64,000 bases of DNA from Paracoccus sp. (in: a-proteobacteria) (GTDB taxonomy: Bacteria > Pseudomonadota > Alphaproteobacteria > Rhodobacterales > Rhodobacteraceae): NCBI RefSeq assembly GCF_030538755.1, contig NZ_JAUNTJ010000017.1, forward strand, positions 1 through 64,000, in the 5' to 3' direction. A program made the position numbers and the translations under genes. Below are positions 6,606 through 63,960 of this stretch, piece after piece. The number at the start of each line of letters is the position of its first letter. The stretch's first letter is position 1. The notes beneath the pieces were generated by a model, which saw only the letters and a program-made list of their open reading frames with translations, was not told where the DNA came from and did no database searches.

Positions 6606-6656
6606 GCCGCTGGTTGGTTGTGGTGCGGTTGGTCGGGCGATCAGCCTTTCGTTTTT

Positions 6657-6680
6657 GCGTATTTATGACAAACAGGAAGC
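6657..6680 (+). repeat. intergenic repeat, family B
   Basis: GCGTATTTATGACAAACAGG followed by AAGC. It matches copies at 13587-13610 and 31625-31648 (both reversed) with changes confined to about four central positions. It lies between two convergent genes. Confidence 0.55.
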
Positions 6681-6717
6681 CATGGGCGCGTCCGGGGTGG
6701 CCGGATGTGGCGGCGCG

Positions 6718-7422
6718 TTAATCCAGTTCGGCCAGAAAGATATATCCGGCGCCATAGATGGTTTTGATAAGGCGCGGGTTTTTCGGGTCTTCGCCCAGCT
6801 TGGCCCGCAGCCGCGAGATACGCACATCCATCGCCCGGTCAAAGCTGTCGCCTGCCGTGCCGCCCAGTGATTCCAGCATTTGTGCGCGGGTAATCAGGCG
6901 GCGCGGGCTGTCGAGGAACAGGCGCAGCAGTTCGGCTTCGGCATGGCTGATCGGGGATTCGCTGCCGTCTGGGGCGGTCAGCATGTAGCGGTCGAAATCG
7001 GCGGTCCATCCGGCGAAGTGCTGGATCTGGCCGCTGCGGCCTGCGGTGGTCTGGGCCGGGCGGCGCAGGCGGGCGCGGATGCGGGCCACGACCTCGGCGG
7101 TTTCGAACGGTTTGATGATGTAGTCATCGGCGCCCAGTTCCAGCCCCGTTACCCGGTCCTGCACCTGTGCGCGGCCCGAGATGATGATGATCGCCGCCCC
7201 CGATTCCGCCGCCAGCCGGTGAACCAGCGCCAGCCCGTCGCGGTCGGGCAGGCCAAGGTCGATCAGGCAGGCGTCGGGGGTGATGCGGCGCAGCGCGGCC
7301 TCGAATTCGGTGGCGCGGGCAAAGGCGGCGGTGCGGAACCCGGCATCTTCCAGCGCATTGGCCAGCAGGCGGCGGATTTCCGGTTCGTCGTCCAGAATGG
7401 CGATCAGCGGGACATCAGACAT
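6718..7422 (-). CDS. OmpR-family response regulator
   Basis: A 234-residue two-component regulator. The receiver domain (residues 1-118) has the acidic pair Asp11/Asp12, phospho-acceptor Asp55 (CLIDLGLPD) and the conserved Lys in IIKPF. The C-terminal winged helix (about 130-230) has the OmpR-type pattern AEAELLRLFLDSPRRLITR and DVRISRLRAKLGEDPKNPRLIKTIYGAGY. It overlaps the hybrid kinase gene by eight bases and is translated after it, so the two almost certainly form one signalling pair. Targets are not shown, but the acyl-CoA synthetase/ABC operon divergent from the kinase gene is the obvious candidate. Confidence 0.93.
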   Translation of the reverse strand: MSDVPLIAILDDEPEIRRLLANALEDAGFRTAAFARATEFEAALRRITPDACLIDLGLPDRDGLALVHRLAAESGAAIIIISGRAQVQDRVTGLELGADDYIIKPFETAEVVARIRARLRRPAQTTAGRSGQIQHFAGWTADFDRYMLTAPDGSESPISHAEAELLRLFLDSPRRLITRAQMLESLGGTAGDSFDRAMDVRISRLRAKLGEDPKNPRLIKTIYGAGYIFLAELD

Positions 7423-9298
7423 CGGGCATGGTTCCAGAGATTGCCTTGGCCAGCGCGGCGGCCAGCCGGGCGGCGTCGAAAGGTTTGGTCAGCACCGGGC
7501 AATTGGCCGCCAGCCGGGCAGGGTCAGAGGGCGGCAGCGAGGTCATCAGCACGCAAGGCAGCGGGCCGCCGGTCAGATCAAGGCCAGAGCCGTCGCCCAG
7601 TTGCAGGTCTGACAGGATCAGCGTCAGCCCCGGCAGATCGGCGATGGCCCGCGCCTCGGCCAGCGAGGCGGCCTCGATCACGGCATGGCCAAGACTGGTC
7701 AGCATATCGCGGACACTGGTGCGGATCGTATTATCGTCCTCGGCCAGCAGCACCATTTGCGGGGTGGCGCGACGCAACGGCAGGCGGATGCTGATGCATG
7801 CGCCGCTGTCGGTATTTCTCAGCCGCAGGGTGCCGCCGGCCAGTTTGGTCTGGTCATAGACCATCGACAGGCCAAGGCCCGATCCTTGTGCCTGCTTGGT
7901 GGAAAAGAACGGCTCGGTCCCGCGCTGCAATGCTTCGGGGGAAAAGCCGGGGCCGGTGTCGGTGACGGTCAGCAGCAGCCAGTCGCTGCCCTCGGCGCGG
8001 GCGGTCAGCGCGATCCGGCCCGGCCCGGCCATGGCGGCATTGGCGTTCAGGATCAGGTTCAGCAGCGAATCCTGCAAGAAGCCGGGGTCAAGGATCAGGC
8101 GCTGATCGGGCAGGGTGCAACTGACCGCCAGTTCGGTGCCGTCGTGCAGCGACGGGCGGGCCAGCGCGGCGGTTTCCGTCAGCAAGGCGGGCAGATCGAC
8201 GGGCTGTGGCGACGGCTGGCGCGGCCCGGAAATCCGCGCCAGCCGTTCCAGCAGCGCCGCGCCCCGGCGGGCGGCGGCCAGCGTGCCCTGCACATCGGCG
8301 GCTGATCCCGGCGGCAGGTCGGCCCCGGCCAGCCGCCCCTGAAGGCCCAGAATGATCGTCAGCAGATTGCCGAAATCATGCGCCAGCCCCGATGTCAGCC
8401 GCGCGGCCAGTTGCCGTTTCGAGGCGTGGCTTAACGCTTCGCGCGCCTGAACCTCGGCGGTGACATCGGTGGACAGGATATAGACACCATGCCCGGCGCG
8501 GTCGGGCGTCAGGGCGATGCGGATGCGGCGGCCCGATCCGGGGTGCGTCATCTCGAACACCTGCGGATCGCCGGCGAGGGCGTTTTCCATCGGCGGGACC
8601 AGCGTTCTGGCCGCGTCGGGGCCATGCGCCTCTTGCAGGGTCAGGCCGACGATTTCGGCATTGGTGCCGGGAAAGACCGAAGGCAGGCGCCGGTTGGAAA
8701 AGGTATAGCGCAGCTGATCGTCCATATGCGCGATATGGGCCGGGATCATTTCGATGACCTGCCGGGTGTGCGCCTCGGTCCGGGTCAGGATGGCCTGCGC
8801 TTCTTGCAGGGCGGCGTTGGTGGCGGCCAGTTCGCGGTTGGCGGCGGCAAGCTGTTCGGCATGGGTCAGCAACTGTTCCGACAGTTCCTCGGACCGGGCG
8901 CGCAGCAATGCTTCCTGCCGCTTGGTGGCGGTGATGTCGGTATAGACGGCGATCCAGCCGCCCTGCGCCAGCGGCGCGCCCTCGACCGCGATCCAGCGGC
9001 CATCGGGGCGCTGACGTTCCAGATAATGCGCCTGAAAGGCCCGCGCCTGTTCGACCCGCATGGCCACTGCGGCATCGGGATCGGCCTGCGGGCCGTATTC
9101 ACCGCGCTCGACCATAAAGCGGATCGTGTCTTCAAAGGTGGTGCCGGGCTGGATCAGTGATTCGGGCAGGTCGAACATGTCCTGAAACGGGCGGTTCGCC
9201 ACCGCCAGCCGCAGATCGGCGTCGAAAATCGTCAGGGCCTGCCCGATCAGATTCAGGGCCGAGCGGGTCAGATCGTTCAGTTGCGCCGTGGTTTCCAT
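7415..9298 (-). CDS. soluble PAS-PAS hybrid histidine kinase
   Basis: A 627-residue sensor kinase with no membrane segment. Order of domains: PAS (about 15-125), a coiled-coil linker rich in Ala/Glu (125-175), second PAS (175-290), HisKA dimerisation helix with the phospho-His in GLAHDFGNLL (about 306), HATPase_c (N box NLILNANAAM, G boxes DTGPGFS and GSGLGLS), then a C-terminal receiver domain (about 510-627, LLAEDDN and ILSDLQLGDGSG). The start ATG at 9298 is preceded by GAGGGGGA. It is cotranscribed with the response regulator. The attached receiver and the separate regulator suggest phosphorelay or competition. The signal is probably cytosolic. Confidence 0.92.
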   Translation of the reverse strand: METTAQLNDLTRSALNLIGQALTIFDADLRLAVANRPFQDMFDLPESLIQPGTTFEDTIRFMVERGEYGPQADPDAAVAMRVEQARAFQAHYLERQRPDGRWIAVEGAPLAQGGWIAVYTDITATKRQEALLRARSEELSEQLLTHAEQLAAANRELAATNAALQEAQAILTRTEAHTRQVIEMIPAHIAHMDDQLRYTFSNRRLPSVFPGTNAEIVGLTLQEAHGPDAARTLVPPMENALAGDPQVFEMTHPGSGRRIRIALTPDRAGHGVYILSTDVTAEVQAREALSHASKRQLAARLTSGLAHDFGNLLTIILGLQGRLAGADLPPGSAADVQGTLAAARRGAALLERLARISGPRQPSPQPVDLPALLTETAALARPSLHDGTELAVSCTLPDQRLILDPGFLQDSLLNLILNANAAMAGPGRIALTARAEGSDWLLLTVTDTGPGFSPEALQRGTEPFFSTKQAQGSGLGLSMVYDQTKLAGGTLRLRNTDSGACISIRLPLRRATPQMVLLAEDDNTIRTSVRDMLTSLGHAVIEAASLAEARAIADLPGLTLILSDLQLGDGSGLDLTGGPLPCVLMTSLPPSDPARLAANCPVLTKPFDAARLAAALAKAISGTMPDV

Positions 9299-47420: not shown

Positions 47421-49121
47421 GTGTTTCCTGCAATTCTGCGGCGTCGCGCCGCCAGCTCCGTGAACGAACCGCTGCGCTGTTCGCTTTACGACGATGCCGT
47501 GGTCTGCCCGATTCAGAAACACAAGACGACGGATTGTCGGCAATATCTGGGCGTGTTCGACCGTTTTGGACGGCTTTTGCCGGATACCATCGCAGATCGG
47601 AATCATGGCACGTATCTGTATCGCGCCGCCGACCTGCCGCCGCCCGCCGCAATCGCAGACGCCCCCGAGGGCGAGGCGATCTATGCCGGGGTGTTCTTTC
47701 ACCACTTCGGGCATTTCCTGATCGAGAGCATGGCGCGGCTTTGGTATGCCAAGGATCGCCCCGATCTGCCCGTCGTCTGGATCGGCGTGGATTCCTGGCC
47801 GCATCAGCCCACCATCCGGCAGTGGCAGCGGGATATGCTGGACATTCTGGGCATCCGAAATCCGCTGCGTGTGCTGATCGCCCCCGAGCGGTTCAAGCAA
47901 CTGCATGTGCCCGGCCCCGGATATCGCTATGCCGACTGGTGCCACCCGCAACAGGCCGCTTTTCTGGCGGCCTACGACGGGCCGCCGCAGGAACCGGGCC
48001 GGCGGCTGTGGCTGTCGCGCAACGGGGTTCACAATGATGTCGGGCTGGCCAACAGCGACATCGTTGAACGCCGGTTGGCCGATGACGGCTGGATCGTGGC
48101 CCGCCCCGAGACATTTCCGCTGCGTGAACAACTGGACATGCTGTCACGCGCCGAAACCATCGCGGGCGAGGAAGGTTCCGCCTTTCACAGCCTGCTGCTG
48201 CTGCGCAATATCACCGGCAAGAAATTCAGGATATTTCAGCGCACCGAGAGGCTGCATCAGTCCTTTGATACCATCGGCGGGGCGCGGCAGGTCGATCAGG
48301 TCTCTTTCCACACCCGCGCCGATCGCGTCGCGAAAAAAAAGGGACGCTCGGTCTGCCGGATTGCGCCGAATGCCGATGAATACCTGAACGCACTGGCCGT
48401 TCCTGTGCCGCCGGTTAAGCCGCCCTCGCCCCCCGCGCAGCAGATGGCCGAACGGCTTGACTGGCTGGCAGGGTTTAACAAGGCCGCGTCTTACCTCGAG
48501 CTGTCGGCCGAGGGGCGCGACATCATGGCGACAGGGGTGCCGGACAAGGTTTCGGTCAGCCCGCATTTTCCGTTCGACACCCGGTCGTCAGTGGTGCCAG
48601 CCGCGCGGTTTTATGAAATGAACCTGTCGGATTACGCTGCACATTTCGCGGCGGGCCGCAGGTTCGACCTGATCTTCATCCGCCAGACGCAGCGGTTCGA
48701 GGATGTGTTGCGGCTGTTTCTGGGCAGCCAGCCGCTGGCCCGCGAATCGGCGATCTGGGTTGTGGATGGCGTCTGGCCTGTCGATGAATGCGCGACGATG
48801 GCATCGCAGCAGGATGCGCTGCGCTGTCGTCAGGCCACGGGCAGCGCCCGGCAGATATGGCAGGGCGATGCCTGTAAATTCGTGGTCATGCTGCATGATT
48901 TCTTTCCGGCCTTCCGGTTCCACACGCTGGATGACGGCGGCAGGCGCGACCAGTTGATCGTCTGGAAAGAGCCGCGCCTGTTTGCCCGGCCAGCCATGGG
49001 CAATATGGCCGGGATCGCGGCGATGATCTATGCGCAGACGCGGCAGATGCGCGACCTGTTTTCGCGCCAGAGCGCCGACACGATCGCGGCGGATCTGACC
49101 CGCCGCTTTGCTGCTGGGTGA
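47421..49121 (+). CDS. GT61-type glycosyltransferase with C-terminal methyltransferase-like half
   Basis: A 566-residue protein. The first ~330 residues match glycosyltransferase family 61: AGVFFHHFGHFLIESMARLW, then RRLWLSRNGV and the MLSRAETIAGEEGSAFHSLLL block. The rest (about 360-560) has a Rossmann-like layout with VSVSPHFPF, RFDLIFIRQTQRFEDVLRLF, ESAIWVVDGVWPVDE and WQGDACKFVVMLHDF, resembling SAM-methyltransferase-like proteins that act with surface glycans. GTG start with GGAGG upstream. It begins 93 bases after tRNA-Leu. Product and surface target unknown. Confidence 0.72.
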   Translation: MFPAILRRRAASSVNEPLRCSLYDDAVVCPIQKHKTTDCRQYLGVFDRFGRLLPDTIADRNHGTYLYRAADLPPPAAIADAPEGEAIYAGVFFHHFGHFLIESMARLWYAKDRPDLPVVWIGVDSWPHQPTIRQWQRDMLDILGIRNPLRVLIAPERFKQLHVPGPGYRYADWCHPQQAAFLAAYDGPPQEPGRRLWLSRNGVHNDVGLANSDIVERRLADDGWIVARPETFPLREQLDMLSRAETIAGEEGSAFHSLLLLRNITGKKFRIFQRTERLHQSFDTIGGARQVDQVSFHTRADRVAKKKGRSVCRIAPNADEYLNALAVPVPPVKPPSPPAQQMAERLDWLAGFNKAASYLELSAEGRDIMATGVPDKVSVSPHFPFDTRSSVVPAARFYEMNLSDYAAHFAAGRRFDLIFIRQTQRFEDVLRLFLGSQPLARESAIWVVDGVWPVDECATMASQQDALRCRQATGSARQIWQGDACKFVVMLHDFFPAFRFHTLDDGGRRDQLIVWKEPRLFARPAMGNMAGIAAMIYAQTRQMRDLFSRQSADTIAADLTRRFAAG

Positions 49122-49276: not shown

Positions 49277-50377
49277 TTGACCGGCAAGACCAGTGGCGAC
49301 GGGTTCGTCGTTTTCGACCACGTTCAGAAAAGCTATGACGGCCAGACGCTTGTCGTCAAAGATTTGAATCTTTCTATCGCCAAGGGTGAATTTCTGACGA
49401 TGCTTGGCCCGTCAGGTTCGGGCAAGACCACCTGCCTGATGATGCTGGCCGGGTTCGAAACCGCCACCCATGGCGAAATCCGGCTGGACGGGCGCAACAT
49501 CAACGATGTGCCGCCGCATAAACGCGGGATCGGTATGGTGTTTCAAAGCTATGCCCTGTTCCCGCATATGACCGTGGGCGAAAATCTGGCCTTCCCGCTG
49601 GAGGTCCGGGGCATGACCAAGGCCGACCGCGATGCCCGGATCAAGCGGGCGCTGGACATGGTGCAGATGGGCGCCTTTGCAAACCGCCGCCCCTCGCAGC
49701 TTTCGGGGGGGCAGCAACAGCGGATCGCACTGGCCCGCGCGCTGGTGTTTGACCCGGAACTGGTGCTGATGGACGAACCGCTTGGCGCGCTGGACAAGCA
49801 GTTGCGCGAACATATGCAATATGAAATCAAGCAGTTGCATCACACTTTGGGAATTACCGTCGTCTATGTGACCCACGATCAGGGCGAGGCGCTGACCATG
49901 AGCGACCGCATCGCTGTGTTCAACGATGGCCGCATTCAGCAGCTTGCCCCGCCTGCCGTGCTGTATGAAAAGCCGGAAAACAGCTTTGTTGCGAATTTCA
50001 TTGGCGAAAACAACGCTCTGCCCGGCAATATTGAACAGTTGAACGGCAATCAGGCGCTGGTCCGGCTGGGCAATGGCGAGCTGATCGACGCCACGGCGGT
50101 CAACATCCGTCAGGTCGGGCAGGACACCCGCGTCTCGATCCGCCCCGAACGGGTCGAGTTCAAGCCCGACCTGATGCCCGCCGATGCCCACACGATCGAA
50201 GCGCAGGTCATCGACGTGATCTATATGGGCGACATTCTGCGCGCCCGCCTGCGGGTCGCGGGCAGCGATGGTTTCGTGATGAAATACCGCAATACGCTGG
50301 GTCAGACCAAGCTGTCGCCCGGCGAAAAGCTGCGTATCGGCTGGCATCCGCAGGATGCCCGCGCGCTGGATCCTTGA
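49277..50377 (+). CDS. polyamine-type ABC transporter ATPase (PotA-like)
   Basis: A 366-residue ATPase with Walker A GPSGSGKTT, signature QLSGGQQQRIALARAL, Walker B LVLMDEPLGALD and a C-terminal TOBE regulatory domain (about 280-366). It serves the spermidine/putrescine-type importer encoded downstream. The start is TTG at 49277, six bases after GGGGAGG; no ATG or GTG in frame fits better. The first binding-protein gene begins three bases after its stop. Confidence 0.92.
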   Translation: MTGKTSGDGFVVFDHVQKSYDGQTLVVKDLNLSIAKGEFLTMLGPSGSGKTTCLMMLAGFETATHGEIRLDGRNINDVPPHKRGIGMVFQSYALFPHMTVGENLAFPLEVRGMTKADRDARIKRALDMVQMGAFANRRPSQLSGGQQQRIALARALVFDPELVLMDEPLGALDKQLREHMQYEIKQLHHTLGITVVYVTHDQGEALTMSDRIAVFNDGRIQQLAPPAVLYEKPENSFVANFIGENNALPGNIEQLNGNQALVRLGNGELIDATAVNIRQVGQDTRVSIRPERVEFKPDLMPADAHTIEAQVIDVIYMGDILRARLRVAGSDGFVMKYRNTLGQTKLSPGEKLRIGWHPQDARALDP

Positions 50378-50380
50378 CCG

Positions 50381-51454
50381 ATGCGCCGCGCGTTTGCCCT
50401 GATCGCCGCTGCCCTGCCGCTTGGCGCTGCGGCGCAGGATCGCAGCATCACGGTCATTTCATGGGGCGGCGATTTTTCTGCCGCTCAGGTCGAGGCGCTG
50501 AACCGTCCCTTTACCGCCGAAACCGGGATCGGCGTGCTGATGGTCGATGCCGGCGACCCGGCCCTGCCGCTGAAGGCGCAGGCCGAGGCGGGCAATGTCA
50601 CCACCGATGTCGCCAGCATCGGTTATGCCGAGGCGACGCAACTGTGTGATGCCGGTGTGGTGCAGCCCATCGACCATGCGATCCTGACGCCCGCGCCTGA
50701 CGGCACTCCGCTGGAACAGGATTTCATGCCGCACGCCCTGGCGGAGTGTTTCGTGGCGACCGACATCTATTCCACGGTCATTGCCTGGGATGACCGGGCG
50801 ATGGATGGCGCCGTGCCGCAGACCGTGGCCGATTTCTTTGATCTGGAACGCTTTCCGGGCCGCCGCGGGGTTTTGAAAGAGCCGCGCTTTACGCTGGAAA
50901 TGGCGCTGATGGCCGATGGCGTGCCCGCCGCGCAGGTCTATGAGCTACTGTCCACCGATGCGGGTGTGGACCGCGCCTTTGCCAAGCTGGATACGATCAA
51001 GGCGCAGTCGATCTTTTGGGAAGCGGGCGCTCAGCCCCGGCAATTGCTGGCCGATGGCGAGGTGGCGATGGCCATGGCCTATAACGGCCGCATCTTTGCC
51101 GCGCGCGTCGATGATGATGTGCCCGTGTCGATGATGTGGGACGGCCAGATCTATGAAATCGAAGGCTGGGTGATTCCGACCGACGCCCCCAACCCGGCCG
51201 AGGCGCTGGAATATGTCGCCTATACCACCTCGCCGCAGGTGATGGCGCGGTTTGCGGGGCAGATCAGCTATGGCCTGCCGCGCCACAGTGCTGCCGCGCT
51301 GGTGGGCAATTATCGCGATACCGACATGCCGATGGCCGGGCATCTGCCGACCGCGCCGGAAAACATGTCGAATGCGCTGCAATTCGACCATGATTTCTGG
51401 GGCGATCACCTGAACGAACTGAACGAACGCTTTGCCCGCTGGGTGGCGTCGTGA
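50381..51454 (+). CDS. polyamine-type binding protein 1 of 4
   Basis: A 357-residue periplasmic PotD/PotF-like solute-binding protein. Signal peptide MRRAFALIAAALPLGAAA, then ITVISWGGDFSAAQVEAL. Shared landmarks with its three neighbours are AEAGNVTTDVASI, FFDLERFPGRRG, AGVDRAFAKLDTIK and the end LNERFARWVAS. It is the most divergent of the four and is translated directly behind the ATPase. A stem-loop follows its stop. Confidence 0.9.
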   Translation: MRRAFALIAAALPLGAAAQDRSITVISWGGDFSAAQVEALNRPFTAETGIGVLMVDAGDPALPLKAQAEAGNVTTDVASIGYAEATQLCDAGVVQPIDHAILTPAPDGTPLEQDFMPHALAECFVATDIYSTVIAWDDRAMDGAVPQTVADFFDLERFPGRRGVLKEPRFTLEMALMADGVPAAQVYELLSTDAGVDRAFAKLDTIKAQSIFWEAGAQPRQLLADGEVAMAMAYNGRIFAARVDDDVPVSMMWDGQIYEIEGWVIPTDAPNPAEALEYVAYTTSPQVMARFAGQISYGLPRHSAAALVGNYRDTDMPMAGHLPTAPENMSNALQFDHDFWGDHLNELNERFARWVAS

Positions 51455-51466
51455 TTAACTTGACCT

Positions 51467-51484
51467 GCTGCCAGCCATGGCAGC
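51467..51484 (+). promoter_or_regulatory. stem-loop after binding-protein gene 1
   Basis: GCTGCC / GGCAGC with a 6-base loop, in the 84-base gap between binding-protein genes 1 and 2. No T-run. Confidence 0.45.
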
Positions 51485-51538
51485 CAATCACAACGGCGAA
51501 TACGCCAGACCCATAGTCCAACCGGAGAAGAAACCGAT

Positions 51539-52609
51539 ATGAAAAGACTGCTGATCCTGACCACCGCACTGGGCGCACTGGCTGTTCCTGCCTCGGCGGA
51601 TGTGAACCTGCTGTCCTGGGGTGGGGCCTATGGCAATTCCCATCTGGAAGCCTATGTCAAACCGTTTCAGGCTGAAACCGGCATCGCCGTCAGTATGGCC
51701 GATGCCGACAACCCCGCGACTCCGATCAAGGCCATGGTCGAGGCGGGCAATGTTTCAGCCGATGTGGCTTCGGTCGAATATGCCGACGCGGTGCGGCTGT
51801 GCGACGAAGGGCTGCTGGAAACGATTGATGCGTCGATCCTTGCCCCGGCCGGGGACGGCACCGCCGCCGCCGATGACTTTATCGAAGGCGCGATCACCGA
51901 ATGCTTTGTCGCCACCGATGTTTATTCGATGGTGCTGACCTATGACGACAGCAAATTCCCCGAGGCCAAGCCCTCGACCCCGGCGGATTTCTTTGATCTG
52001 GAACAGTTCCCCGGCAAGCGCACCATGCGCAAGGGGGCCAAGTTCAATCTGGAATTCGCGCTGATGGCCGATGGCGTCGCCCCGGATGAAGTCTATGACA
52101 TGCTGGCCACCCCCGAAGGCGTGGACCGCGCCTTTGCCAAGCTGGACACGATCAAGCGCGACATCGTGTGGTGGGAAGCGGGCGCGCAGCCGCCGCAACT
52201 GCTGGCCGATGGCGAGGTGACGATGGCCTATGCCTTTAACGGGCGTATCTTCAACGCCGCCCATGGCGAGAACAAGCCGTTCAAGATCGTCTGGGACGGC
52301 CAGATCTACGAAATGGAAGGCTGGATCGTGCCCAAGGGTGCGCCGAATCTGGAAGATGCGCTGAAGTTCATCACCTGGACCACCGCGCCCGCGCCGCAGG
52401 CCCGTGCGGCTGAATTCATCAGCTATGGCCCGCCGCGCCGCTCGGCTGCTGCGCTGGTCGGCAATATCGAAGGCTCGGACGTGCCGATGGGGCCGAACCT
52501 GCCGACGACGGCGGAAAACCTGACCAATGCACTGGGGTCGAACCTTGAATTCTGGGTCGATCACGATGCCGAGCTGAACGAACGCTTTAACAGCTGGCTG
52601 GCAAGCTGA
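51539..52609 (+). CDS. polyamine-type binding protein 2 of 4
   Basis: A 356-residue paralogue: signal peptide MKRLLILTTALGALAVPASA and VNLLSWGGAYGNSHLEAY. A central region (residues about 189-229) is encoded by 124 bases identical to those in binding protein 4. Ligand-pocket residues appear to differ among the four: here YSMVLTYDD replaces YSTVIAWDD. Good GGAGAAG ribosome site. A strong stem-loop follows. Confidence 0.92.
   Translation: MKRLLILTTALGALAVPASADVNLLSWGGAYGNSHLEAYVKPFQAETGIAVSMADADNPATPIKAMVEAGNVSADVASVEYADAVRLCDEGLLETIDASILAPAGDGTAAADDFIEGAITECFVATDVYSMVLTYDDSKFPEAKPSTPADFFDLEQFPGKRTMRKGAKFNLEFALMADGVAPDEVYDMLATPEGVDRAFAKLDTIKRDIVWWEAGAQPPQLLADGEVTMAYAFNGRIFNAAHGENKPFKIVWDGQIYEMEGWIVPKGAPNLEDALKFITWTTAPAPQARAAEFISYGPPRRSAAALVGNIEGSDVPMGPNLPTTAENLTNALGSNLEFWVDHDAELNERFNSWLAS
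52102..52225 (+). repeat. 124-bp tract identical to one in binding protein 4
   Basis: These 124 bases match 54441-54564 with no difference, whereas sequence on both sides is clearly diverged. It lies within coding sequence and encodes the same 41 residues in both genes, including WWEAGAQPPQLL. Confidence 0.95.
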
Positions 52610-52627
52610 TCCGGCCCTTTGAACACC

Positions 52628-52656
52628 GCCGTTCCCGCCACCGATGCGGGGACGGC
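52628..52656 (+). promoter_or_regulatory. stem-loop after binding-protein gene 2
   Basis: GCCGTTCCCGC / GCGGGGACGGC, 11 pairs with one G-T, 7-base loop, just after the stop. No T-run, so probably mRNA stabilisation or partial termination. Confidence 0.65.
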
Positions 52657-52712
52657 ATCGCAGGAAAGAACAAGCTGTAGTCAACAGCGTCCATATTGGG
52701 GAGGACGACGCT

Positions 52713-53792
52713 ATGATGGGGTCCAAACTGCTGGTCGGAACGGCGCTTGCTTTGCTGGCCGGCCCGGCATTGGCCGAAGGGCCGATCAATATCACCACCT
52801 ATGGCGGTGCCTTTGGCGACGCGGTGAACGAGGCTTACACCAAGCCCTTTACCGAGGCGACCGGCATCGGGGCCACGATGATCGACAATTCCGATCCGCC
52901 CACCCGGCTGAAAGCCGAGGTCGAGGCAGGCAATGTGCAAAGCGATGTGTTCGACGTCGAACAGTCGGATGTGCTGCGCCTGTGCGACGAAGGGCTGATC
53001 GAGCCGATTGATCCGGCGATCCTGCCCGCAGGTGCCGATGGCAGTGCGCCCGCCGATGACTATCTGCCCGCGGCGCTGCATGAATGCGGCGCGGCGATCA
53101 TGGTCTGGTCAACGGTCATTGCCTATGACACCAGCGCCTTTCCCGATGGCGCGCCCGCGACGGTGGCCGATTTCTTTGATCTGGAGAAATTCCCCGGCAA
53201 GCGTGGTTTCATCAAGCGGCCGAAATACACGCTGGAATTTGCCCTGCTGGGCGATGGCGTGGCCCCGGATCAGGTCTATGACGTGCTGTCCACGCCCGAA
53301 GGCGTTGACCGCGCTTTTGCCAGGCTGGACACGATCAAGGGCGACATCCTGTGGTGGGAAGCCGGCGCGCAGGCACCGCAACTGCTGGCCGACAAAGAGG
53401 CGTCGATGACGCTGGCCTATAACGGCCGGATTTTCGACGCCATCGTGCAAGAGGGCAAGCCGTTCGGCTTTGTCTGGGATGGCGTCAATCTGGATATGGA
53501 TTACTGGGTCGTGCCGGTCGGTGCGCCCAATCGCGACGCGGCGATGAAGTTCATCGCCTTTGCCTCGGACCCGGCGCAGCAGGCGAATCTGTCGAAATAT
53601 ATCGCCTATGGCCCGCCGCGCAAATCGGCCTCTGCCAGCGTGGGTATGTTCAAGGACGGCACCACCGACATGGCCCCCTATCTGCCGACCACGCCCGAAA
53701 ACGTGGAAAGGGCGCTGGTCAACGATGCCGAGTTCTGGGCCGATCACGACATCGAACTGACCGAGCGTTTCAACGCCTGGCTGGCAAGCTGA
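52713..53792 (+). CDS. polyamine-type binding protein 3 of 4
   Basis: A 359-residue paralogue. Signal peptide MMGSKLLVGTALALLAGPALA, then INITTYGGAFGDAVNEAY. It differs from the others in the ligand region: CGAAIMVWSTVIAYD and NLDMDYWVVPVGAP. The end DIELTERFNAWLAS is shared with protein 4 nearly base for base. Start at 52713 (or 52716) follows GGGGAGGA at seven bases. A stem-loop separates it from gene 4. Confidence 0.92.
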   Translation: MMGSKLLVGTALALLAGPALAEGPINITTYGGAFGDAVNEAYTKPFTEATGIGATMIDNSDPPTRLKAEVEAGNVQSDVFDVEQSDVLRLCDEGLIEPIDPAILPAGADGSAPADDYLPAALHECGAAIMVWSTVIAYDTSAFPDGAPATVADFFDLEKFPGKRGFIKRPKYTLEFALLGDGVAPDQVYDVLSTPEGVDRAFARLDTIKGDILWWEAGAQAPQLLADKEASMTLAYNGRIFDAIVQEGKPFGFVWDGVNLDMDYWVVPVGAPNRDAAMKFIAFASDPAQQANLSKYIAYGPPRKSASASVGMFKDGTTDMAPYLPTTPENVERALVNDAEFWADHDIELTERFNAWLAS

Positions 53793-53840
53793 GAAGGCCG
53801 GGCCGTTCGCCTGCTTGATGGGCGGTCCAAAACCAAAAAC

Positions 53841-53856
53841 GGCGGCCAAAGCCGCC
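53841..53856 (+). promoter_or_regulatory. stem-loop after binding-protein gene 3
   Basis: GGCGGC-CAAA-GCCGCC, 6-bp stem, in the gap before gene 4. No T-run. Confidence 0.5.
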
Positions 53857-53874
53857 AAACAGGGAGAACGACAT

Positions 53875-54951
53875 ATGAAAAAATATCTGATTCTTGGCAC
53901 GGCACTGGCCGGGCTGACGGGTGCCGCCTCGGCGCAGCAGGTGAACGTGGTGTCATGGGGCGGGGCCTATTCGGCCAGTCAGGTCGAGGCGTATAACAAG
54001 CCCTTCACCGAGGCGACGGGCATCACCGTCAACATGATCGACTCCGATGATCCCGCGATCCCGCTGAAAGCGCAGGTCGAGGCGGGCAATGTCACCGCGG
54101 ATGTGTTCGACCTTGACCACGCCGGTGCGGTCCGCATGTGCGATGAGGGGGCCGCGATCCAGATCGACGCCGCCGATCTGCCCGCCGCGCCCGATGGCAC
54201 GGCAGCCGTGGACGATTTCATCCCCGGCGCGCTGACCGATTGCGCGGTCGGGAACATCGTCTGGGGCACGGTCATCGCCTATGACACGACCAAGTTCCCC
54301 GATGGCGCGCCGCAAACCGCCGCCGATTTCTTTGACACCGCCCAATTCCCCGGCAAGCGCGGCCTGCCGCCCAGTGCGAAACGCACGCTGTCGCTGGCGC
54401 TGGTGGCGGATGGCGTCGCGCCCGATCAGGTTCTGGAAACGCTGGCCACCCCCGAAGGCGTGGACCGCGCCTTTGCCAAGCTGGACACGATCAAGCGCGA
54501 CATCGTGTGGTGGGAAGCGGGCGCGCAGCCGCCGCAACTGCTGGCCGATGGCGAGGTGACGATGACCACCGTTTACAACGGCCGCATCTTTGACGCCATT
54601 GTGGCCGAGGGTAAGCCCTTCGGCATCATCTGGGACGGGCAATACATGGAAATGAACCTGTTCGTCATCGCCGAGGGCGCACCGAATCCCGAACAGGCGC
54701 TGGAATATGTGAAATTCGCCACCGACACGCAGCAACTGGCGGAACAGGCGCGCTATATCAGCTATGGCCCGACGCGGAAATCCTCGCTGCCGCTGGTGGG
54801 CACCTACAAGGATGACAAGACCCAGATGGCCGATCACATGCCCAACTCGGAACAGCATATGGCGGGTGCGGTGATGGATGACCCGGAATTCTGGGCCGAC
54901 CACGACATCGAACTGACCGAGCGTCTGCGCAGCTGGCTGTCGCAGAACTGA
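53875..54951 (+). CDS. polyamine-type binding protein 4 of 4
   Basis: A 358-residue paralogue. Signal peptide MKKYLILGTALAGLTGAASA and VNVVSWGGAYSASQVEAY. Residues about 190-230 are encoded by the 124-base tract shared with protein 2. The pocket region reads CAVGNIVWGTVIAYD. GGGAGA precedes the ATG. A perfect 10-bp stem-loop follows before the permease genes. Confidence 0.92.
   Translation: MKKYLILGTALAGLTGAASAQQVNVVSWGGAYSASQVEAYNKPFTEATGITVNMIDSDDPAIPLKAQVEAGNVTADVFDLDHAGAVRMCDEGAAIQIDAADLPAAPDGTAAVDDFIPGALTDCAVGNIVWGTVIAYDTTKFPDGAPQTAADFFDTAQFPGKRGLPPSAKRTLSLALVADGVAPDQVLETLATPEGVDRAFAKLDTIKRDIVWWEAGAQPPQLLADGEVTMTTVYNGRIFDAIVAEGKPFGIIWDGQYMEMNLFVIAEGAPNPEQALEYVKFATDTQQLAEQARYISYGPTRKSSLPLVGTYKDDKTQMADHMPNSEQHMAGAVMDDPEFWADHDIELTERLRSWLSQN
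54441..54564 (+). repeat. 124-bp tract identical to one in binding protein 2
   Basis: The second copy of the tract at 52102-52225. Gene 3 lies between the two copies and has a related but clearly different sequence in the same place. Confidence 0.95.
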
Positions 54952-54961
54952 TGCCGGTTGT

Positions 54962-54986
54962 CCGCCGCCCCCGTGCGGGGCGGCGG
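54962..54986 (+). promoter_or_regulatory. stem-loop after binding-protein gene 4
   Basis: CCGCCGCCCC-CGTGC-GGGGCGGCGG, perfect 10-bp stem, 10 bases after the stop. No T-run. It sits between the abundant binding proteins and the permeases. Confidence 0.65.
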
Positions 54987-55023
54987 CTTATCTGATCCGA
55001 TCCTGCCGAACCGAAGGTTACAG

Positions 55024-56322
55024 ATGTCGAACGCCCTTGATCCACATGCCGCCGTTGTCGCCACCGCCTCGGGTGTCAGCCCTGATGGCGTGATGCGCAC
55101 CGCTGATGGCAAGCCGCTGCGGCGCGCGTTGATGCGGTCGCAGGCGCGGGCGCGGCGGCGGGCGTTCCTGCTGGTCACGCCGCTGCTGCTGTTCGTGCTG
55201 CTGACCTTTCTGGTGCCCATCGGGCAGATGTTGCAGCGCTCGTTCTATAACGCCGAGTTTGCGGCCAATATGCCGCGCGTGACCGAGTGGTTTCACAACA
55301 CCGCGCCCGGCACGCCCCCGGATGATGCCGCCTGGACGGCGCTTGGCGACGACATCAAAGAGGCCGCCGCCGCCCGCACCATCGCCCGCGCGGGCACGCG
55401 CCTGAACTATGACATGTCGGGGGCGCGGTCGCTGTTCACCTCGACCGGGCGCGCGGCCCGCAATATGGAGCCGCCCTATCAGGCCGCGCTGGCCGAAATC
55501 GACGCCCGCTGGGAAAGCCCCCTGCTGTGGGCCAAGATGCGGCAGTCGGCCAATGCGGTGACGGGCGATTTCTATCTGGCCGCCGTGGATCGCACGCGGG
55601 ATGAGGCGGGCAGCATCACCGCCGTTCCCGAACAGCAGCAGATCTATGTAAAGCTGTTTATCCGCACGCTGGTTCTGTCGGCGGTCATCACGCTGACCAC
55701 CTTTGTTCTGGGCTTTCCGATTGCGCATCTGCTGGCCACGCTGCCGATGCGCAAATCGAACCTGCTGATGATCCTTGTGCTGCTGCCGTTCTGGACCTCG
55801 CTTCTGGTGCGCACGACAAGCTGGATCGTGCTGCTGCAACAGCAGGGCGTCATCAACGATCTGCTGATCTTTTTCGGCATCATCGGCCAGCAAAGCCGGT
55901 TGCAGATGATCTATAACATGACCGGCACGATCATCGCGATGACGCATATCCTGCTGCCGTTCATGGTGCTGCCGCTGTATTCGGTGATGCGGACGATCAA
56001 CCCGTCCTATGTCCGCGCCGCCCGCAGCCTTGGCGCGACAAGCTGGACGGCCTTCCGCCGCGTCTATTTCCCGCAGACCCTGCCGGGGCTGGGGGCAGGG
56101 GCGCTGTTGGTGTTCATTCTGGCCGTTGGTTATTACATCACGCCCGCGCTGGTCGGCGGTGCCTCGGGGCAGTTGATTTCCAACATGATCGCCATGCACA
56201 CCACACAGACGCTGAACTGGTCGCTGGCGGCGGCGCTGTCCACCATTTTGCTGGTGATCGTGCTGGTGCTTTACTGGCTGTATGACCGCATGGTCGGCAT
56301 CGACAACCTGAAACTGGGGTAA
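55024..56322 (+). CDS. polyamine-type ABC permease 1 (PotB-like)
   Basis: A 432-residue inner-membrane permease, long for the PotB family (~280-310). A basic cytoplasmic N-terminus (~45 residues) precedes helix 1 (FLLVTPLLLFVLLTFLVPIG). Then about 130 periplasmic residues intervene before helix 2, which is the source of the extra length. The ATPase-contact EAA motif is RAARSLGATSWTAFRRVYFP. It stops four bases before permease 2. Start at 55024 follows AAGGTTAC. Confidence 0.92.
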   Translation: MSNALDPHAAVVATASGVSPDGVMRTADGKPLRRALMRSQARARRRAFLLVTPLLLFVLLTFLVPIGQMLQRSFYNAEFAANMPRVTEWFHNTAPGTPPDDAAWTALGDDIKEAAAARTIARAGTRLNYDMSGARSLFTSTGRAARNMEPPYQAALAEIDARWESPLLWAKMRQSANAVTGDFYLAAVDRTRDEAGSITAVPEQQQIYVKLFIRTLVLSAVITLTTFVLGFPIAHLLATLPMRKSNLLMILVLLPFWTSLLVRTTSWIVLLQQQGVINDLLIFFGIIGQQSRLQMIYNMTGTIIAMTHILLPFMVLPLYSVMRTINPSYVRAARSLGATSWTAFRRVYFPQTLPGLGAGALLVFILAVGYYITPALVGGASGQLISNMIAMHTTQTLNWSLAAALSTILLVIVLVLYWLYDRMVGIDNLKLG

Positions 56323-56325
56323 ACC

Positions 56326-57285
56326 ATGGCGCTTCCTTCTTATGCCTCTCCGCTGGAAAAACTGTGGCACGGCGCCTATCTGGTGATCTGCACGGCGATC
56401 TTTGTGTTCCTGATCGCGCCGATTCTGGTGTTCATTCCGCTGTCCTTCAACGCGGAGCCATATTTCACCTTTACGGAAAAGATGCTGACGCTCGACCCCG
56501 AGGGTTACAGCACCCGCTGGTATCAGACGCTGCTGACCTTCGGGATGCAGAACCCCGGCGGCAACACCGGCTGGGCGTGGTGGCAGGATGCGTGGAACAA
56601 CGCGCATTGGATCAAGGCGGCCAAGAACTCGGTCATCATCGGAGTCAGCGCGACGCTGGTGGCGACGTTTCTGGGCACGCTGGCCGCGCTTGGCCTGTCG
56701 CGGCCGGAAATGCCGTTCCGGCGGGCGATCATGGCGATGCTGATTTCGCCGATGATCGTGCCGGTCATCATCTCGGCCCTGGGGATGTTCTTTTTCTATT
56801 CGAACCCCTGCGGTATTCTGGGGATGAGCGGTTCTGACGGCGGGCCGGCCTGCGGGCGTCTGACCGGCAGCTATCTGGGGATCGTGCTGGCCCATGCCAC
56901 GCTGGGAATTCCCTTTGTGATTATCACCGTCACCGCAACGCTGGTCGGCTTTGACCAGTCGCTGAACCGGGCGGCGGCCTCGCTGGGGGCCAGCCCGCGG
57001 CGGACGTTCTTCAAGATCACGCTGCCGCTGATCCTGCCGGGGGTGATTTCGGGGGCGCTGTTCGCCTTTGTCACCAGCTTTGACGAGGTGATCGTGGTGC
57101 TGCTGATTGCCGCGCCGGAACAGCAGACCATTCCGCGCCAGATGTGGAACGGCATCCGCGAACAGATCAGCCCGGCGATTCTGGCCATAGCCACGCTGCT
57201 GGTGTTCTTTTCCATCGCGCTGCTGACCACGGTTGAACTGCTGCGCCGCCGTTCGGAACGCATTCGCGGTGTCACCCCGTCATGA
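56326..57285 (+). CDS. polyamine-type ABC permease 2 (PotC-like)
   Basis: A 319-residue permease with six helices. It too has extended periplasmic segments: about 45 residues after helix 1 (YSTRWYQTLLTFGMQNPGG...WWQD) and a loop with two cysteines, SNPCGILGMSGSDGGPACGR, that could form a disulfide. EAA motif: RAAASLGASPRRTFFKITLP. Its stop overlaps the hemerythrin-like gene start (ATGA). Confidence 0.92.
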   Translation: MALPSYASPLEKLWHGAYLVICTAIFVFLIAPILVFIPLSFNAEPYFTFTEKMLTLDPEGYSTRWYQTLLTFGMQNPGGNTGWAWWQDAWNNAHWIKAAKNSVIIGVSATLVATFLGTLAALGLSRPEMPFRRAIMAMLISPMIVPVIISALGMFFFYSNPCGILGMSGSDGGPACGRLTGSYLGIVLAHATLGIPFVIITVTATLVGFDQSLNRAAASLGASPRRTFFKITLPLILPGVISGALFAFVTSFDEVIVVLLIAAPEQQTIPRQMWNGIREQISPAILAIATLLVFFSIALLTTVELLRRRSERIRGVTPS

Positions 57286-57842
57286 CGCCCGAACAGCTAG
57301 AGGACGACGCGGCCCGCCCCAAGGCCCCGCCGATCCCCGGCCTGACGCCGATGCAGGAACTGCACGGCAAGGGGCTGGCGCGCATCCATCGGATGTATCT
57401 GAACGAACTGACGGCGGTGGCCCGGCTGATGGCGGATATCCGCGCCGGTCTGGCCAGCCCGCAGGTGCTGCCAACAGCCATCGCCGGAATGTCGCTGACG
57501 CAGAATCTGGCGATGTTCGGTTCTGTCTGCGGGCGGCAATGCGCTTTGCTGCAAAACCACCATGACATCGAAGAACAGTGGATGTTTCCTGCCATTGCCG
57601 AACATGCGCAGGCGGGCTTGGACGCGGTGCTGGACCGGCTGAAGGCCGAACACGAGGTCATCCACAGCCTGATCGGCGAGTTGCGGCAGGCGGCGGATGA
57701 TCTGGCCGATGCGCCCGATGATGCCAGCTTTGGCGCCTGCACCGCCGCGTTCAACCGGCTGGACCGCGCCATCCGGTCGCATTTCGGATACGAGGAAACG
57801 CAGCTTGGCCCGGCCATGGGCTATCTGGGGATTCCGGTTTAG
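57282..57842 (+). CDS. hemerythrin HHE-domain protein
   Basis: A 186-residue cytosolic helical protein. The four-helix hemerythrin pattern is spread over LLQNHHDIEEQWMFPAI, KAEHEVIHSLIGEL and IRSHFGYEETQLG, giving His/Glu ligands for a di-iron site. Such proteins sense or carry O2, NO or iron. It starts inside the stop of permease 2, so it belongs to the transport operon, an unusual partner for a polyamine-type importer. Role unknown. Confidence 0.83.
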   Translation: MTPEQLEDDAARPKAPPIPGLTPMQELHGKGLARIHRMYLNELTAVARLMADIRAGLASPQVLPTAIAGMSLTQNLAMFGSVCGRQCALLQNHHDIEEQWMFPAIAEHAQAGLDAVLDRLKAEHEVIHSLIGELRQAADDLADAPDDASFGACTAAFNRLDRAIRSHFGYEETQLGPAMGYLGIPV

Positions 57843-61211: not shown

Positions 61212-62249
61212 TCAACCGTGCGGCACTGGCGCCCAGATCACCGCGTCGATATGCGGCGCGGCGGTGGCCAGCATCACCAGCCGGTCAAACCCCAGCGCGA
61301 TGCCGCTGGCCTGCGGCATGATCGCCAGAGCCGCCAGAAAGTCGTCGTCCAGCGGATAGCGGTGGCCATAGACGCGCTGCTTTTCGTCCATCTCGGCGGT
61401 AAAGCGGCGCTGCTGCTCGGCGGGGTCGGTCAGCTCGCCAAAGCCGTTGGCCAGCTCGACGCCGCAGGCATACAGCTCGAACCGCTCGGCAAAGCGGGGA
61501 TCGTCGGGGCAGGGGCGCGCCAGCGCGGCCTCGGCCACGGGGTAGCGGTCCAGAACGGTGGCGCGGCCCATGCCAAGGCGCGGCTCGATCTTTTCCACCA
61601 GAACGCGGCTGAACATGTCGGCCCATGTGTCGTCGGCGGCATGGCGCAGCCCGGCGGCCCGCATCTGCGCCGCCATGGCTGCCGCATCGGTGGTGCCGTC
61701 ATCGTGCAGCGTCGCGGCCAGATCGACACCGGCATGGCGGGCAAAGGCCTCCGCCACCGACAGCCGCTCTGGCGCGGCAAAGGGATCGCAGACCGCATCG
61801 CGAAACCGCAGCGCCGCAACCCCGGCCCCCTGTGCCGCCAGCCGCAGCAGGGCGGCGCAATCCGCCATCAGCGCATCATAAGGGGCACCCGCGCGATACC
61901 ATTCCAGCATGGTGAATTCGGGGCTGTGCAGAGGCCCACGCTCGCGGTTGCGCCAGACATGGGCAAAGGCGGCGATCCGGGTTTCCCCCGCCGCCAGCAG
62001 CTTTTTCATCGCGAATTCGGGGCTGGTGTGCAGATACATCCGCCGCGCCGTGCCGTCATCGCCCATGGCATCGGTGGCAAAGGCGTGCAGATGCGCCTCG
62101 TTCCCCGGCGATACGGCCAGTGCGGCCGGGTCCACCTCGGTAAAGGCTTCATCGTCCAGCCAGCCGCGCAGCAGGCGCTGAATCCGGTTCCGCGCCAGCA
62201 GGGCAGGGCGCCGCCCTTCATGCCGTTCGGGTCGCCACCAATCGTTCAT
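61212..62249 (-). CDS. epmA: EF-P lysine ligase EpmA
   Basis: A 345-residue class II lysyl-tRNA-synthetase-like enzyme without an anticodon-binding domain. It attaches (beta-)lysine to a lysine of EF-P. Motif 2 HVWRNRERGPLHSPEFTMLEWYRAG and motif 3 GIALGFDRLVMLA are clear. Start at 62249 (MNDWW) is used; 62255 is also possible. It diverges from efp, which strongly supports the assignment. No epmB (lysine aminomutase) gene is in the window. Confidence 0.92.
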   Translation of the reverse strand: MNDWWRPERHEGRRPALLARNRIQRLLRGWLDDEAFTEVDPAALAVSPGNEAHLHAFATDAMGDDGTARRMYLHTSPEFAMKKLLAAGETRIAAFAHVWRNRERGPLHSPEFTMLEWYRAGAPYDALMADCAALLRLAAQGAGVAALRFRDAVCDPFAAPERLSVAEAFARHAGVDLAATLHDDGTTDAAAMAAQMRAAGLRHAADDTWADMFSRVLVEKIEPRLGMGRATVLDRYPVAEAALARPCPDDPRFAERFELYACGVELANGFGELTDPAEQQRRFTAEMDEKQRVYGHRYPLDDDFLAALAIMPQASGIALGFDRLVMLATAAPHIDAVIWAPVPHG

Positions 62250-62345
62250 GCGCATCCTCGGGTCTGGTGAAATCTGTTCGTCCGCGCTATGGCGTGGCAT
62301 CCCGCGCCCTTAGGCGCGCCCCGATTTATGGTCAAGGAGCCATTC

Positions 62346-62912
62346 GTGAAGGTCATCGCCTCTAGCCTGCGCAAAGGTAATGTCGTCGAACTGGACGACA
62401 AGCTGTATGTCGTGCTTACCGCCCAGAACTTCCATCCGGGCAAGGGCACGCCGGTCACTCAGGTCGATATGCGCCGCATTTCCGACGGCGTGAAGGTCAG
62501 CGAACGCTGGCGGACGACCGAACAGGTCGAACGTGCCCATGTGGACGAACGGTCGTATAATTTTCTGTATGAAGATGGCGAAGGCTATCACTTCATGGAG
62601 CCGGAAAGTTATGAGCAGGTCGTGGTGTCGCCCGATGTGATCGGCGATCAGGCCGTTTATCTGCAAGAGGGCGCAAGCTGTTTCCTGCAAGTTTACAATG
62701 GCGTGCCGATTTCCATTGAAATGCCCGCCAAGATCACCCTCGAAATCACCGAGACCGAGCCGGTGGTAAAAGGGCAAACCGCGTCGTCGTCGTATAAACC
62801 TGCAATCTGCGATAATGGCCTGCGCGTGATGGTGCCGCCGCATATCGGCGTGGGCACGCGGATCGTGATTAACACCGAGGATAATTCCTACGTCGAACGC
62901 GCGAAAGACTGA
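62346..62912 (+). CDS. efp: elongation factor P
   Basis: A 188-residue translation factor that rescues ribosomes stalled at proline stretches. The modified lysine is Lys33 in HPGKG, within the loop of domain I; domains II and III follow ([27 protein letters not shown] and [26 protein letters not shown]). GTG start at 62346 with AAGGAG upstream. EpmA is encoded divergently. A terminator follows. Confidence 0.97.
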
Positions 62913-62967: not shown

Positions 62968-63960
62968 TTAGGTGAACAGGAAGTCGGCGGCGGTGATATC
63001 TGCGGTGCTGATGCCTTTGACGAAAACCGCAGTTCCGGGGTTGATAAGGAACGCAAAGCTGTCCTCAAGATCTTCCATCAGCATGTTGTCGAAATCAAGC
63101 GCGCCGCTGGTGTTCGTGATGTGAATGATGTCCTCCCCTTGGGTGGAATCATTGATGATATCAATGTCTTCGTAATCTGGATCGTTCAGGGTGAAATAAG
63201 TGCTATAATCGAACAGGAATGTGTCATTCCCGGCCCCGCCATAAAGCGAGTCATATCCATCGCGCCCGATCAGCGTGTCGTCACCGGCCATGCCCATAAG
63301 CGTGTCATTGCCGATGCCACCATCCAGCGTATCATTTCCGCTTTCACCCAGCAGATGATCGTCACCCGCATTGCCGAAAATATGGTCATTCCCGGCACCG
63401 CCGGTGATGATATCGTTAAAGTGAACGGTTTCCCAAATCCCTGCCGGGTTCTTCATCTGGATTATGTCAAATCCCTTGATGGTGTCGTTCAGGTCGCTGC
63501 CCCAGATTTGGCTTAGCTTTCCTCCGGCTGTGTCGTATTTTTTGATGGACGAGACGTCGATGCTGATGGCCCCCTGAATTATCAGAGATTTTTCTGCTGT
63601 GGCGTTATAAAGGATTTCGATATTAGAGACTTCACCCAATTTGATCGCCAGAACCGATCCGGTCGTTGAGTTTGAATATGCTCGGATTTCGTTTTTGCCG
63701 CCTCCACCGTCAATGGTGTCGCCTCCTTTGAAGCGATAATCGAGCGCATCATCTACGAAAATAATGTCATTTCCAGATCCGCCGTAGATCATATCGACGC
63801 CGTTTCCTCCGTAGATGTGATCGTCTCCATTGCCTCCGTAGATTGTATCCAATCCATCCCCGCCATAAATGGTGTCGTTCCCGCCCCTTCCATCTATGAA
63901 ATTATGACCGCTGGTTCCGTTAAGGATGTCATGTCCGATTGTGCCGAAAATGGTCGCCAT
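62968..63960 (-). CDS. RTX calcium-binding protein (type I secreted)
   Basis: A 330-residue protein with two blocks of RTX nonapeptides (GGxGxDxUx): residues ~6-68 (GGNDTIYGGDGLDTIYGG...) and ~190-260 (GGAGNDHIFGNAGDDHLLGE...). Between them is a non-repeat domain without recognisable catalytic residues. The C-terminal end (STADITAADFLFT) is a typical type I secretion signal. AT-rich composition, unlike neighbours. No secretion genes nearby. Start at 63960 follows GAGGGAAG. The function may be adhesive or structural. Confidence 0.88.
   Translation of the reverse strand: MATIFGTIGHDILNGTSGHNFIDGRGGNDTIYGGDGLDTIYGGNGDDHIYGGNGVDMIYGGSGNDIIFVDDALDYRFKGGDTIDGGGGKNEIRAYSNSTTGSVLAIKLGEVSNIEILYNATAEKSLIIQGAISIDVSSIKKYDTAGGKLSQIWGSDLNDTIKGFDIIQMKNPAGIWETVHFNDIITGGAGNDHIFGNAGDDHLLGESGNDTLDGGIGNDTLMGMAGDDTLIGRDGYDSLYGGAGNDTFLFDYSTYFTLNDPDYEDIDIINDSTQGEDIIHITNTSGALDFDNMLMEDLEDSFAFLINPGTAVFVKGISTADITAADFLFT

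Follow-up and report, generated by a model that had tools for sequence, protein, structure and literature searches.

A Pot-type ABC importer operon with four anciently diverged receptor genes in Paracoccus

ABC importers in which several periplasmic receptors with different ligands serve one core have been described, namely CbcWV with the receptors CbcX, CaiX and BetX, and HisQMP with ArgT and HisJ (PMC10846223). In Rhodopseudomonas palustris, three clustered paralogous receptors (RPA3723-3725) are part of one ABC gene cluster, RPA3725 being 71% and 60% identical to the other two; two of the three were reported to differ in ligand profile while the third bound nothing tested, the ligands being fatty acids and dicarboxylates (PMC3223731). 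The E. coli PotD-PotABC system combines one ATPase type and two permeases with a single SBP_bac_8-like receptor.

The locus analysed here lies in a stretch of 64,000 nucleotides of a Paracoccus sp. contig (NZ_JAUNTJ010000017.1; hereafter the window) and is built from the same kinds of parts as PotD-PotABC, but four receptor genes, instead of the one of potABCD, accompany its single core. It has one core and several receptors in common with Cbc and HisQMP, although these belong to other transporter families and have three and two receptors, respectively. Some Cbc and His receptors are encoded away from their core, and R. palustris RPA3723-3725, with three receptors against four here, represent a different receptor family. 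The principle of the multi-receptor ABC importer is established, and four receptors in the Pot-type family are an unusual version of it; the suggestion of the earlier note on this DNA that the layout might be undescribed is not supported in that form, in view of Cbc, HisQMP and the three clustered receptors reported for R. palustris. A literature search found no description of four receptors in a Pot-type operon, which is weak evidence. The importer genes and the hemerythrin-domain gene that follows them are:

49277..50377, + strand: PotA-like ATPase (ABC_tran + TOBE_2), 366 aa, TTG start with GGGGAGG ahead of it
50381..51454, + strand: receptor of lineage S1 (SBP_bac_8), 357 aa
51539..52609, + strand: receptor of the core lineage S2 (SBP_bac_8), 356 aa
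52713..53792, + strand: receptor of lineage S3 (SBP_bac_8), 359 aa (358 aa if the start is at 52716)
53875..54951, + strand: receptor of lineage S4 (SBP_bac_8), 358 aa
55024..56322, + strand: PotB-like permease P1 (BPD_transp_1), 432 aa
56326..57285, + strand: PotC-like permease P2 (BPD_transp_1), 319 aa
57282..57842, + strand: hemerythrin-domain gene, overlapping P2 by 4 bases

An ORF and domain search of the window found all seven importer ORFs uninterrupted and on the same strand, which bears out the composition given in the earlier note: one ATPase, two permeases and four paralogous receptors of 356-359 aa. In line with the signal peptides it had ascribed to the receptors, each begins with a hydrophobic leader that, judged by eye, ends in an AxA-type site. 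None of the receptor genes is broken, and the same four occur in the same order in the assembly of Paracoccus sp. S5R_Sa_21 (L072), whose importer proteins are 92-97% identical to those of the window; the order was read from L111, a contig equal in length to that of L072. Since the pairwise identity among S1-S4 is only 48-57%, they are not assembly copies of a single gene, and together with the second assembly this rules out an assembly artefact. The hemerythrin gene, which the span given in the earlier note takes in and which is found on the operon strand in 27 of 113 fetched Paracoccus loci, is probably an optional neighbour and not an importer component. P1 carries a long additional stretch of about 150 residues, lacking in E. 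coli PotB, N-terminal to the PotB-matching part, and this stretch has no match among solved structures at E 1. In the genome assembly (86.8% complete) P1 is without a second close copy, the next match being partial and 37% identical.

The label “polyamine-type” proved to be only loosely right. The ATPase exceeds the cut-off of the NCBIfam model TIGR01187 potA (382.2 against 355.6 bits), which places it in the PotA subfamily, while it stays below that of the narrower PotA equivalog NF006987 (364.8 against 482), and the permeases match the PotB and PotC models best, at scores well under the cut-offs (163.1 against 348 and 141.5 against 326). Against the PotD equivalog, with its cut-off of 582 bits, the receptors reach about 43 bits at most (S1 43.3, S2 35.7, S3 26, S4 no match), and S1 scores 31.9 bits against the 636 of the PotF equivalog. 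In a weak alignment judged by eye, PotD E36 has no acidic counterpart in S1-S4, and PotD D168 has one in S1 only. Among solved structures, the GABA receptors Pf622 (iGABASnFR) and Atu4243 and the opine receptors MotA (5l9g) and 6hly (listed as Agropine permease) belong to the best sequence matches, behind 8jv1. We know of no four-receptor operon among these GABA and opine receptors.

Comparison of the gene order in relatives revealed a multi-receptor expansion, mainly in Paracoccus. From 125 Paracoccus genomes 113 loci were fetched, leaving aside the window's own genome and 11 others, two without a match and nine with weaker matches only. One receptor is present in 17 loci, two in 63, three in 25 and four in 3, and the remaining five are incomplete (four without P1 on the stretch, and L222 without the ATPase). 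In 108/113 loci the receptors are encoded between the ATPase and P1, all in the same orientation. Outside the genus, 394 genomes were searched and 60 of the 79 best-ranked places were fetched, the other 19 and weaker ones being left; 58 of these 60 loci have a single receptor, a figure that applies to them only.

In the receptor tree, from which L222 was left out as its receptor pieces covered fewer than 280 profile positions, S1 occurs in 26, S2 in 111, S3 in 23 and S4 in 80 of the 113 Paracoccus loci, and the 17 one-receptor loci have S2 only. The loci were picked through a search with S2, and therefore its near-universal occurrence is partly a selection effect. Median identity within S1, S2, S3 and S4 is 59, 79, 80 and 80%, respectively, compared to 51-57% between lineages. 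The four receptors of the window are old lineages shared across the genus, not products of a recent local duplication: a local origin was rejected (deltaL 1239, AU p 1e-89) in a test of 77 sequences with 2000 resamplings, few by IQ-TREE's own warning. The separate status of S1 is less secure, because it nests within S2 in the IQ-TREE subset, while it stands beside S2 in the FastTree tree. In five non-Paracoccus loci the sole operon receptor is of the S3/S4 type (S4-clade or a related b-type), and the permeases of these loci nest among those of loci with S1/S2-type receptors only, as in the case of L268 (S3/S4-type only), which is placed beside L029 (S1/S2-type only) with a support of 0.998. 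Outside Paracoccus, the two principal types of receptor substitute for each other behind related permeases.

The pocket positions were mapped by sequence alignment to the site of Pf622 and are numbered according to S1. Arg205 and Tyr264 of Pf622 belong to its GABA site (PMC12999171); these two contacts are invariant in all 245 S1-S4 sequences, whereas other pocket positions differ from Pf622. A filter for conservation within lineages retains seven of the eight GABA-site positions; five of the seven separate the lineages, compared to 29 of the 124 columns of this kind (P 0.008); adding position 170, which was done post hoc when the lineage-separating columns were already known, gives 6/8 (P 0.002). 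Over all mature columns, 2/9 pocket positions are shared, not significantly below average (P 0.32), so that the enrichment is confined to columns conserved within lineages. Three positions are nearly fixed per lineage: in the order S1, S2, S3 and S4, position 128 is D, D, M and I, position 261 is E, E, D and D or N, and position 170 is F, F, Y and R. The proposal that the receptors differ around the probable ligand pocket is thereby upheld for the predicted site, and these lineage-specific positions suggest that the ligands differ among the four receptors. Among 354 sequences, positions 128 and 261 pair as ID (157), DE (153), MD (24), IN (18), DD (1) and LD (1). A repeated independent origin of D128-E261 was not supported; parsimony places one joint change, at a clade of 154 tips, and the pairing counts are therefore not independent events.

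Plausible ligands are polyamines, omega-amino or GABA-like acids, guanidino compounds or opine-like amines. Near non-Paracoccus operons, a class-III aminotransferase was found in 24/94 cases without the D128-E261 pocket and in 0/17 with it, and agmatinase-like genes in 5/94 and 2/17, respectively; such neighbours are compatible with amine ligands, without being proof. None of five catabolic markers occurs within 4.5 kb of the operon in 109 Paracoccus loci. The neighbour clusterings were swamped by spurious overlapping high-GC frames and served for the choice of markers only, which were then named by family searches.

It is unlikely, though worth weighing, that all receptors bind the same ligand and form a series differing only in affinity or amount. 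The commonest pocket codes of S1 and S2 differ by Phe/Tyr exchanges only, most pocket residues being common to both, and the spacers between receptors, which are long (median 97 nt, n=133) and more stably folded than shuffled versions (median z -2.63, n=130), could tune receptor amounts. Those of the window, with the spacer ahead of P1, are:

51455..51538, + strand: S1-S2 spacer, GC hairpin, z -4.07
52610..52712, + strand: S2-S3 spacer, 11-pair GC hairpin, z -1.26, unexceptional alone
53793..53874, + strand: S3-S4 spacer, GC hairpins, z -1.31
54952..55023, + strand: S4-P1 spacer, 10-pair GC hairpin, z -1.30

Terminators between receptors were considered and rejected, as no + strand terminator-like site is listed in these four spacers; the two strands of the region together carry 12 such sites, compared to 6.9 +/- 2.8 in shuffled sequence, and sigma-70-like promoters are absent, compared to 2.5 +/- 1.9. 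Against an affinity or dosage series, S3 and S4 depart at the nearly lineage-fixed positions 128, 261 and 170, and such a series would not require old, pocket-distinct lineages.

PotD E220-G221-E222 is an experimentally tested docking motif (PMC11414716). In the window it aligns with D-G-E in S1, S2 and S4 and with D-K-E in S3, and the docking segment has one consensus in all four lineages at 9/12 positions, compared to 119/336 (P 0.005); one of its ten columns separates lineages, a shortage that is not significant (P 0.27). This mostly shared segment, and the substitution of one receptor type for the other behind related permeases, are indirect signs that all four receptors may dock on this permease pair. 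Receptors can also feed sensor kinases, as described in Pseudomonas aeruginosa (PMC11113362), and some of the four might serve another permease, a sensor or a chemoreceptor. We regard this as quite improbable given the kept docking segment, the position of the receptors between ATPase and P1, and the five non-Paracoccus loci in which an S4-clade or b-type receptor is the only one of its operon.

Purifying selection acts on all four receptors, with dN/dS (NG86) between the window and L072 of 0.08, 0.15, 0.09 and 0.11 for S1 to S4; that some of them are decaying, non-functional leftovers of duplication, as their patchy presence across Paracoccus might suggest, is hardly credible with four open frames under such constraint.

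We consider it likely, from comparative sequence evidence, that several specificity variants feed one Pot-type channel. In such an arrangement, a PotABC-type core of one ATPase and two permeases would be served by four anciently diverged receptors, each capturing its own ligand and then docking on the one pair of permeases by way of the conserved segment of its C-lobe, and the four would be kept since each binds a different, related small amine: one channel with several specificity cartridges. A tentative extension, about which we are doubtful, is that the four ligands are chemically distinct and that the receptors form a modular specificity cassette, whose members come, go and replace one another across Paracoccus while the permease behind them varies far less. 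The D128-E261 type might then take a dicationic amine, the I/M128 types an omega-amino acid or zwitterion, and the S4 type with Arg170 a neutral or anionic amine conjugate.

PA0222 had been predicted to be a polyamine receptor but is GABA-specific (PMC6829864), and the polyamine-type annotation of genes such as those described here may mislead in the same way. The sequence data are consistent with the earlier note's idea that a single channel may accept several substrates, and one pump probably takes up several related compounds through the four receptors. Paracoccus offers a natural graded series of one to four receptors behind one permease type, which, combined with the nearly lineage-fixed pocket differences, opens two questions to direct testing: to what extent different ligands are tolerated by a single ABC channel, and if the choice of receptor alone determines the specificity of the importer.

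An open-reading-frame and domain reading bore out the layout that the earlier note had proposed, with one ATPase, four tandem binding proteins and two permeases, all on the + strand:

49277-50377, + strand: PotA-like ATPase
between the ATPase and P1, + strand: four SBP_bac_8 receptors, S1, S2, S3 and S4 (357, 356, 359 and 358 residues)
55024-56322, + strand: P1, PotB-like permease
56326-57285, + strand: P2, PotC-like permease
57282-57842: hemerythrin-domain protein, the last gene of the span in that note, overlapping the P2 gene by 4 bases

Gaps of 3 bases were found at the ATPase/S1 and P1/P2 junctions, while 72-103 bases follow each receptor gene. The hemerythrin-domain gene is an optional neighbour of the operon, being present on its strand at 27 of 113 fetched Paracoccus loci and at 0/17 single-receptor loci. 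Immediately upstream of the operon (47421-49121) lies a gene whose 566-residue product carries a glycosyltransferase 61 domain in the N-terminal half. Further downstream, an elongation factor P gene and a class II (D, K, N) tRNA-synthetase-like gene point away from each other (61212-62912), the latter presumably encoding the EpmA-type modifying partner of elongation factor P, and an RTX calcium-binding repeat protein is encoded on the minus strand (62968-63960).

The named locus of Paracoccus sp. S5R_Sa_21 (L072), in which P1 is 97% and the receptors are 92-95% identical, points to Paracoccus as the genus of the window, and comparison with it revealed purifying selection on all four receptors. 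No second close copy of P1 was found in the window genome, which is 86.8% complete.

A search of 125 Paracoccus genomes gave a match at 1e-60 in 123, and 113 loci were fetched. Between the ATPase and P1, 17 of these carried one receptor, 63 two, 25 three and three four; the remaining five lacked P1 on the stretch (four) or the ATPase (one). Among 80 named loci, the three-receptor species include P. caeni, P. acridae, P. aerius and P. sanguinis. The comparison with relatives that the earlier note proposed shows expansion to several receptors mainly in Paracoccus. A single receptor followed the ATPase in 58 of 60 fetched non-genus loci; of the other two, one has its single receptor at a contig edge and L241 carries two. 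Likewise, the named loci labelled other than Paracoccus and showing ATPase, receptor and P1 had one receptor there, with two exceptions. In L051 a single receptor is seemingly split across two frames. L013, for which Alphaproteobacteria is the only label, has two receptors, and its contig is as long as that of G478, a Paracoccus genome. A further receptor lies behind P2 in L052, L069 and L073; in L069 it is found at about 2.6 kb and is followed by a second permease pair. The two receptors of L241 (about 6260-8560) are S1/S2-type and in tandem, so receptors seem to have been duplicated in this operon a second time, independently. Relatives of S4 (E at most 1e-80) in 80 plasmid records comprised 53 from Rhizobium and seven from Paracoccus, which suggests that plasmids, too, carry related systems.

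In a tree of 354 receptors, the genus sequences fell into lineages S1 (26), S2 (111), S3 (23) and S4 (84, plus one from the non-genus locus L259). Across 113 genus loci (112 fetched plus the window), the commonest sets, written in gene order, were 24 (58), 2 (17), 231 (10) and 243 (6), followed by 124 (4), 21 (4), 244 (3), 234 (2) and 14 (2); 23, 123, 2314, 214 and 2414 occurred once each. The order 1234 was found in two loci, the window and L111, and all four lineages are also present in L217. Two of the four receptors of L220 are S4-type, and in L112 the contig breaks off within a fourth receptor. IQ-TREE analysis of 77 sequences supported S1 (99), S3 (100), S4 (100) and a group of S3, S4 and related non-genus (b-type) receptors (95), with S1 falling within S2. 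A local origin of the four receptors was rejected, as enforcing their grouping cost 1239 log units in this analysis; phylogenetically, they belong to old lineages rather than to a local burst.

An S3/S4-type protein is the only operon receptor in five non-genus loci (L240, L254, L259, L263, L268). Because their P1 permeases sit among those of S1/S2-type-only loci (P1 of L268 and of L029 being sisters, support 0.998), we read receptor type as having been naturally exchanged, or differentially lost, behind one permease lineage. P1 itself is about 150 residues longer than PotB ahead of the PotB-aligning region (match from residue 207 of a 434-residue reading, PotB model position 58). This stretch, which gave no solved-structure match at E 1, is perhaps a periplasmic domain aiding docking. 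It is not tied to receptor number, since one-receptor relatives match P1 nearly full length.

The GABA site of the receptor Pf622 (iGABASnFR), given in an extract of PMC12999171 as W9, T13, F100, F/Y102, W202, R205, D228 and Y264, was mapped by sequence alignment to S1 positions 28, 32, 128, 130, 234, 237, 261 and 297. In the order S1/S2/S3/S4, the residues are W/W/Y/W (28), F/Y/F/Y (32), D/D/M/I (128), Y/Y/W/W (130), Y/F/Y/Y (234), R in all (237), E/E/D/D-or-N (261) and Y in all (297); position 170, F/F/Y/R, corresponds approximately to PotD E171 in a weak alignment read by eye. Pocket residues are near-fixed inside most lineages and vary most at 32 in S1 (20 F against 6 Y) and, in S4, at 261 (67 D against 18 N; N in the S4 of the window). 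The suggestion that the receptors differ near the ligand pocket thus agrees with lineage-specific residues at the predicted positions. The pocket was not significantly less shared than the average over all mature columns (2/9, P 0.32). The PotD docking stretch, D212-E222 in an extract of PMC11414716, maps to GAQPxQLLADGE, of which 9/12 positions are common to all lineages (P 0.005); its deficit of lineage-separating columns was not significant (P 0.27). These tests assume that columns are independent and depend on the alignment, so they support the reading of one channel with exchangeable receptors without deciding it.

The nearest solved sequences to the receptors were 8jv1, GABA sensors, Atu4243 and opine receptors; 8jv1 is named spermidine/putrescine-binding by its depositors, and a search of open-licence literature found no paper on it. 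A PRK06105-type class-III aminotransferase lay within 4.5 kb in 24/94 non-genus loci without the pocket pair D128-E261 versus 0/17 with it (Fisher P 0.02, uncorrected, one of five markers tested), and in 0/109 genus loci. The other markers, without versus with the pair, were agmatinase-like (5/94, 2/17), M24 (9/94, 0/17), aldehyde dehydrogenase (3/94, 0/17) and 5-aminolevulinate synthase (8/94, 0/17). Neighbouring genes fit amine or omega-amino ligands in general, with nothing firm for the Paracoccus receptors.

Receptor-receptor gaps in the genus have a median of 97 nt (n=133), and the 130 of 40-200 nt folded more stably than their dinucleotide-shuffled counterparts (median z -2.63, with 20 shuffles per gap); three of the four spacers in the window were unexceptional (z about -1.3). 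Such spacers would plausibly stabilise receptor mRNA, giving more receptor than permease. No four-receptor Pot-type operon was described in the titles and abstract openings of the open-licence papers listed, which were part of the matches (in one instance 20 of 543); this is weak evidence of absence. We consider the four-receptor operon real and functional-looking, and regard it as an unusual form of an arrangement already known rather than a new kind of system.
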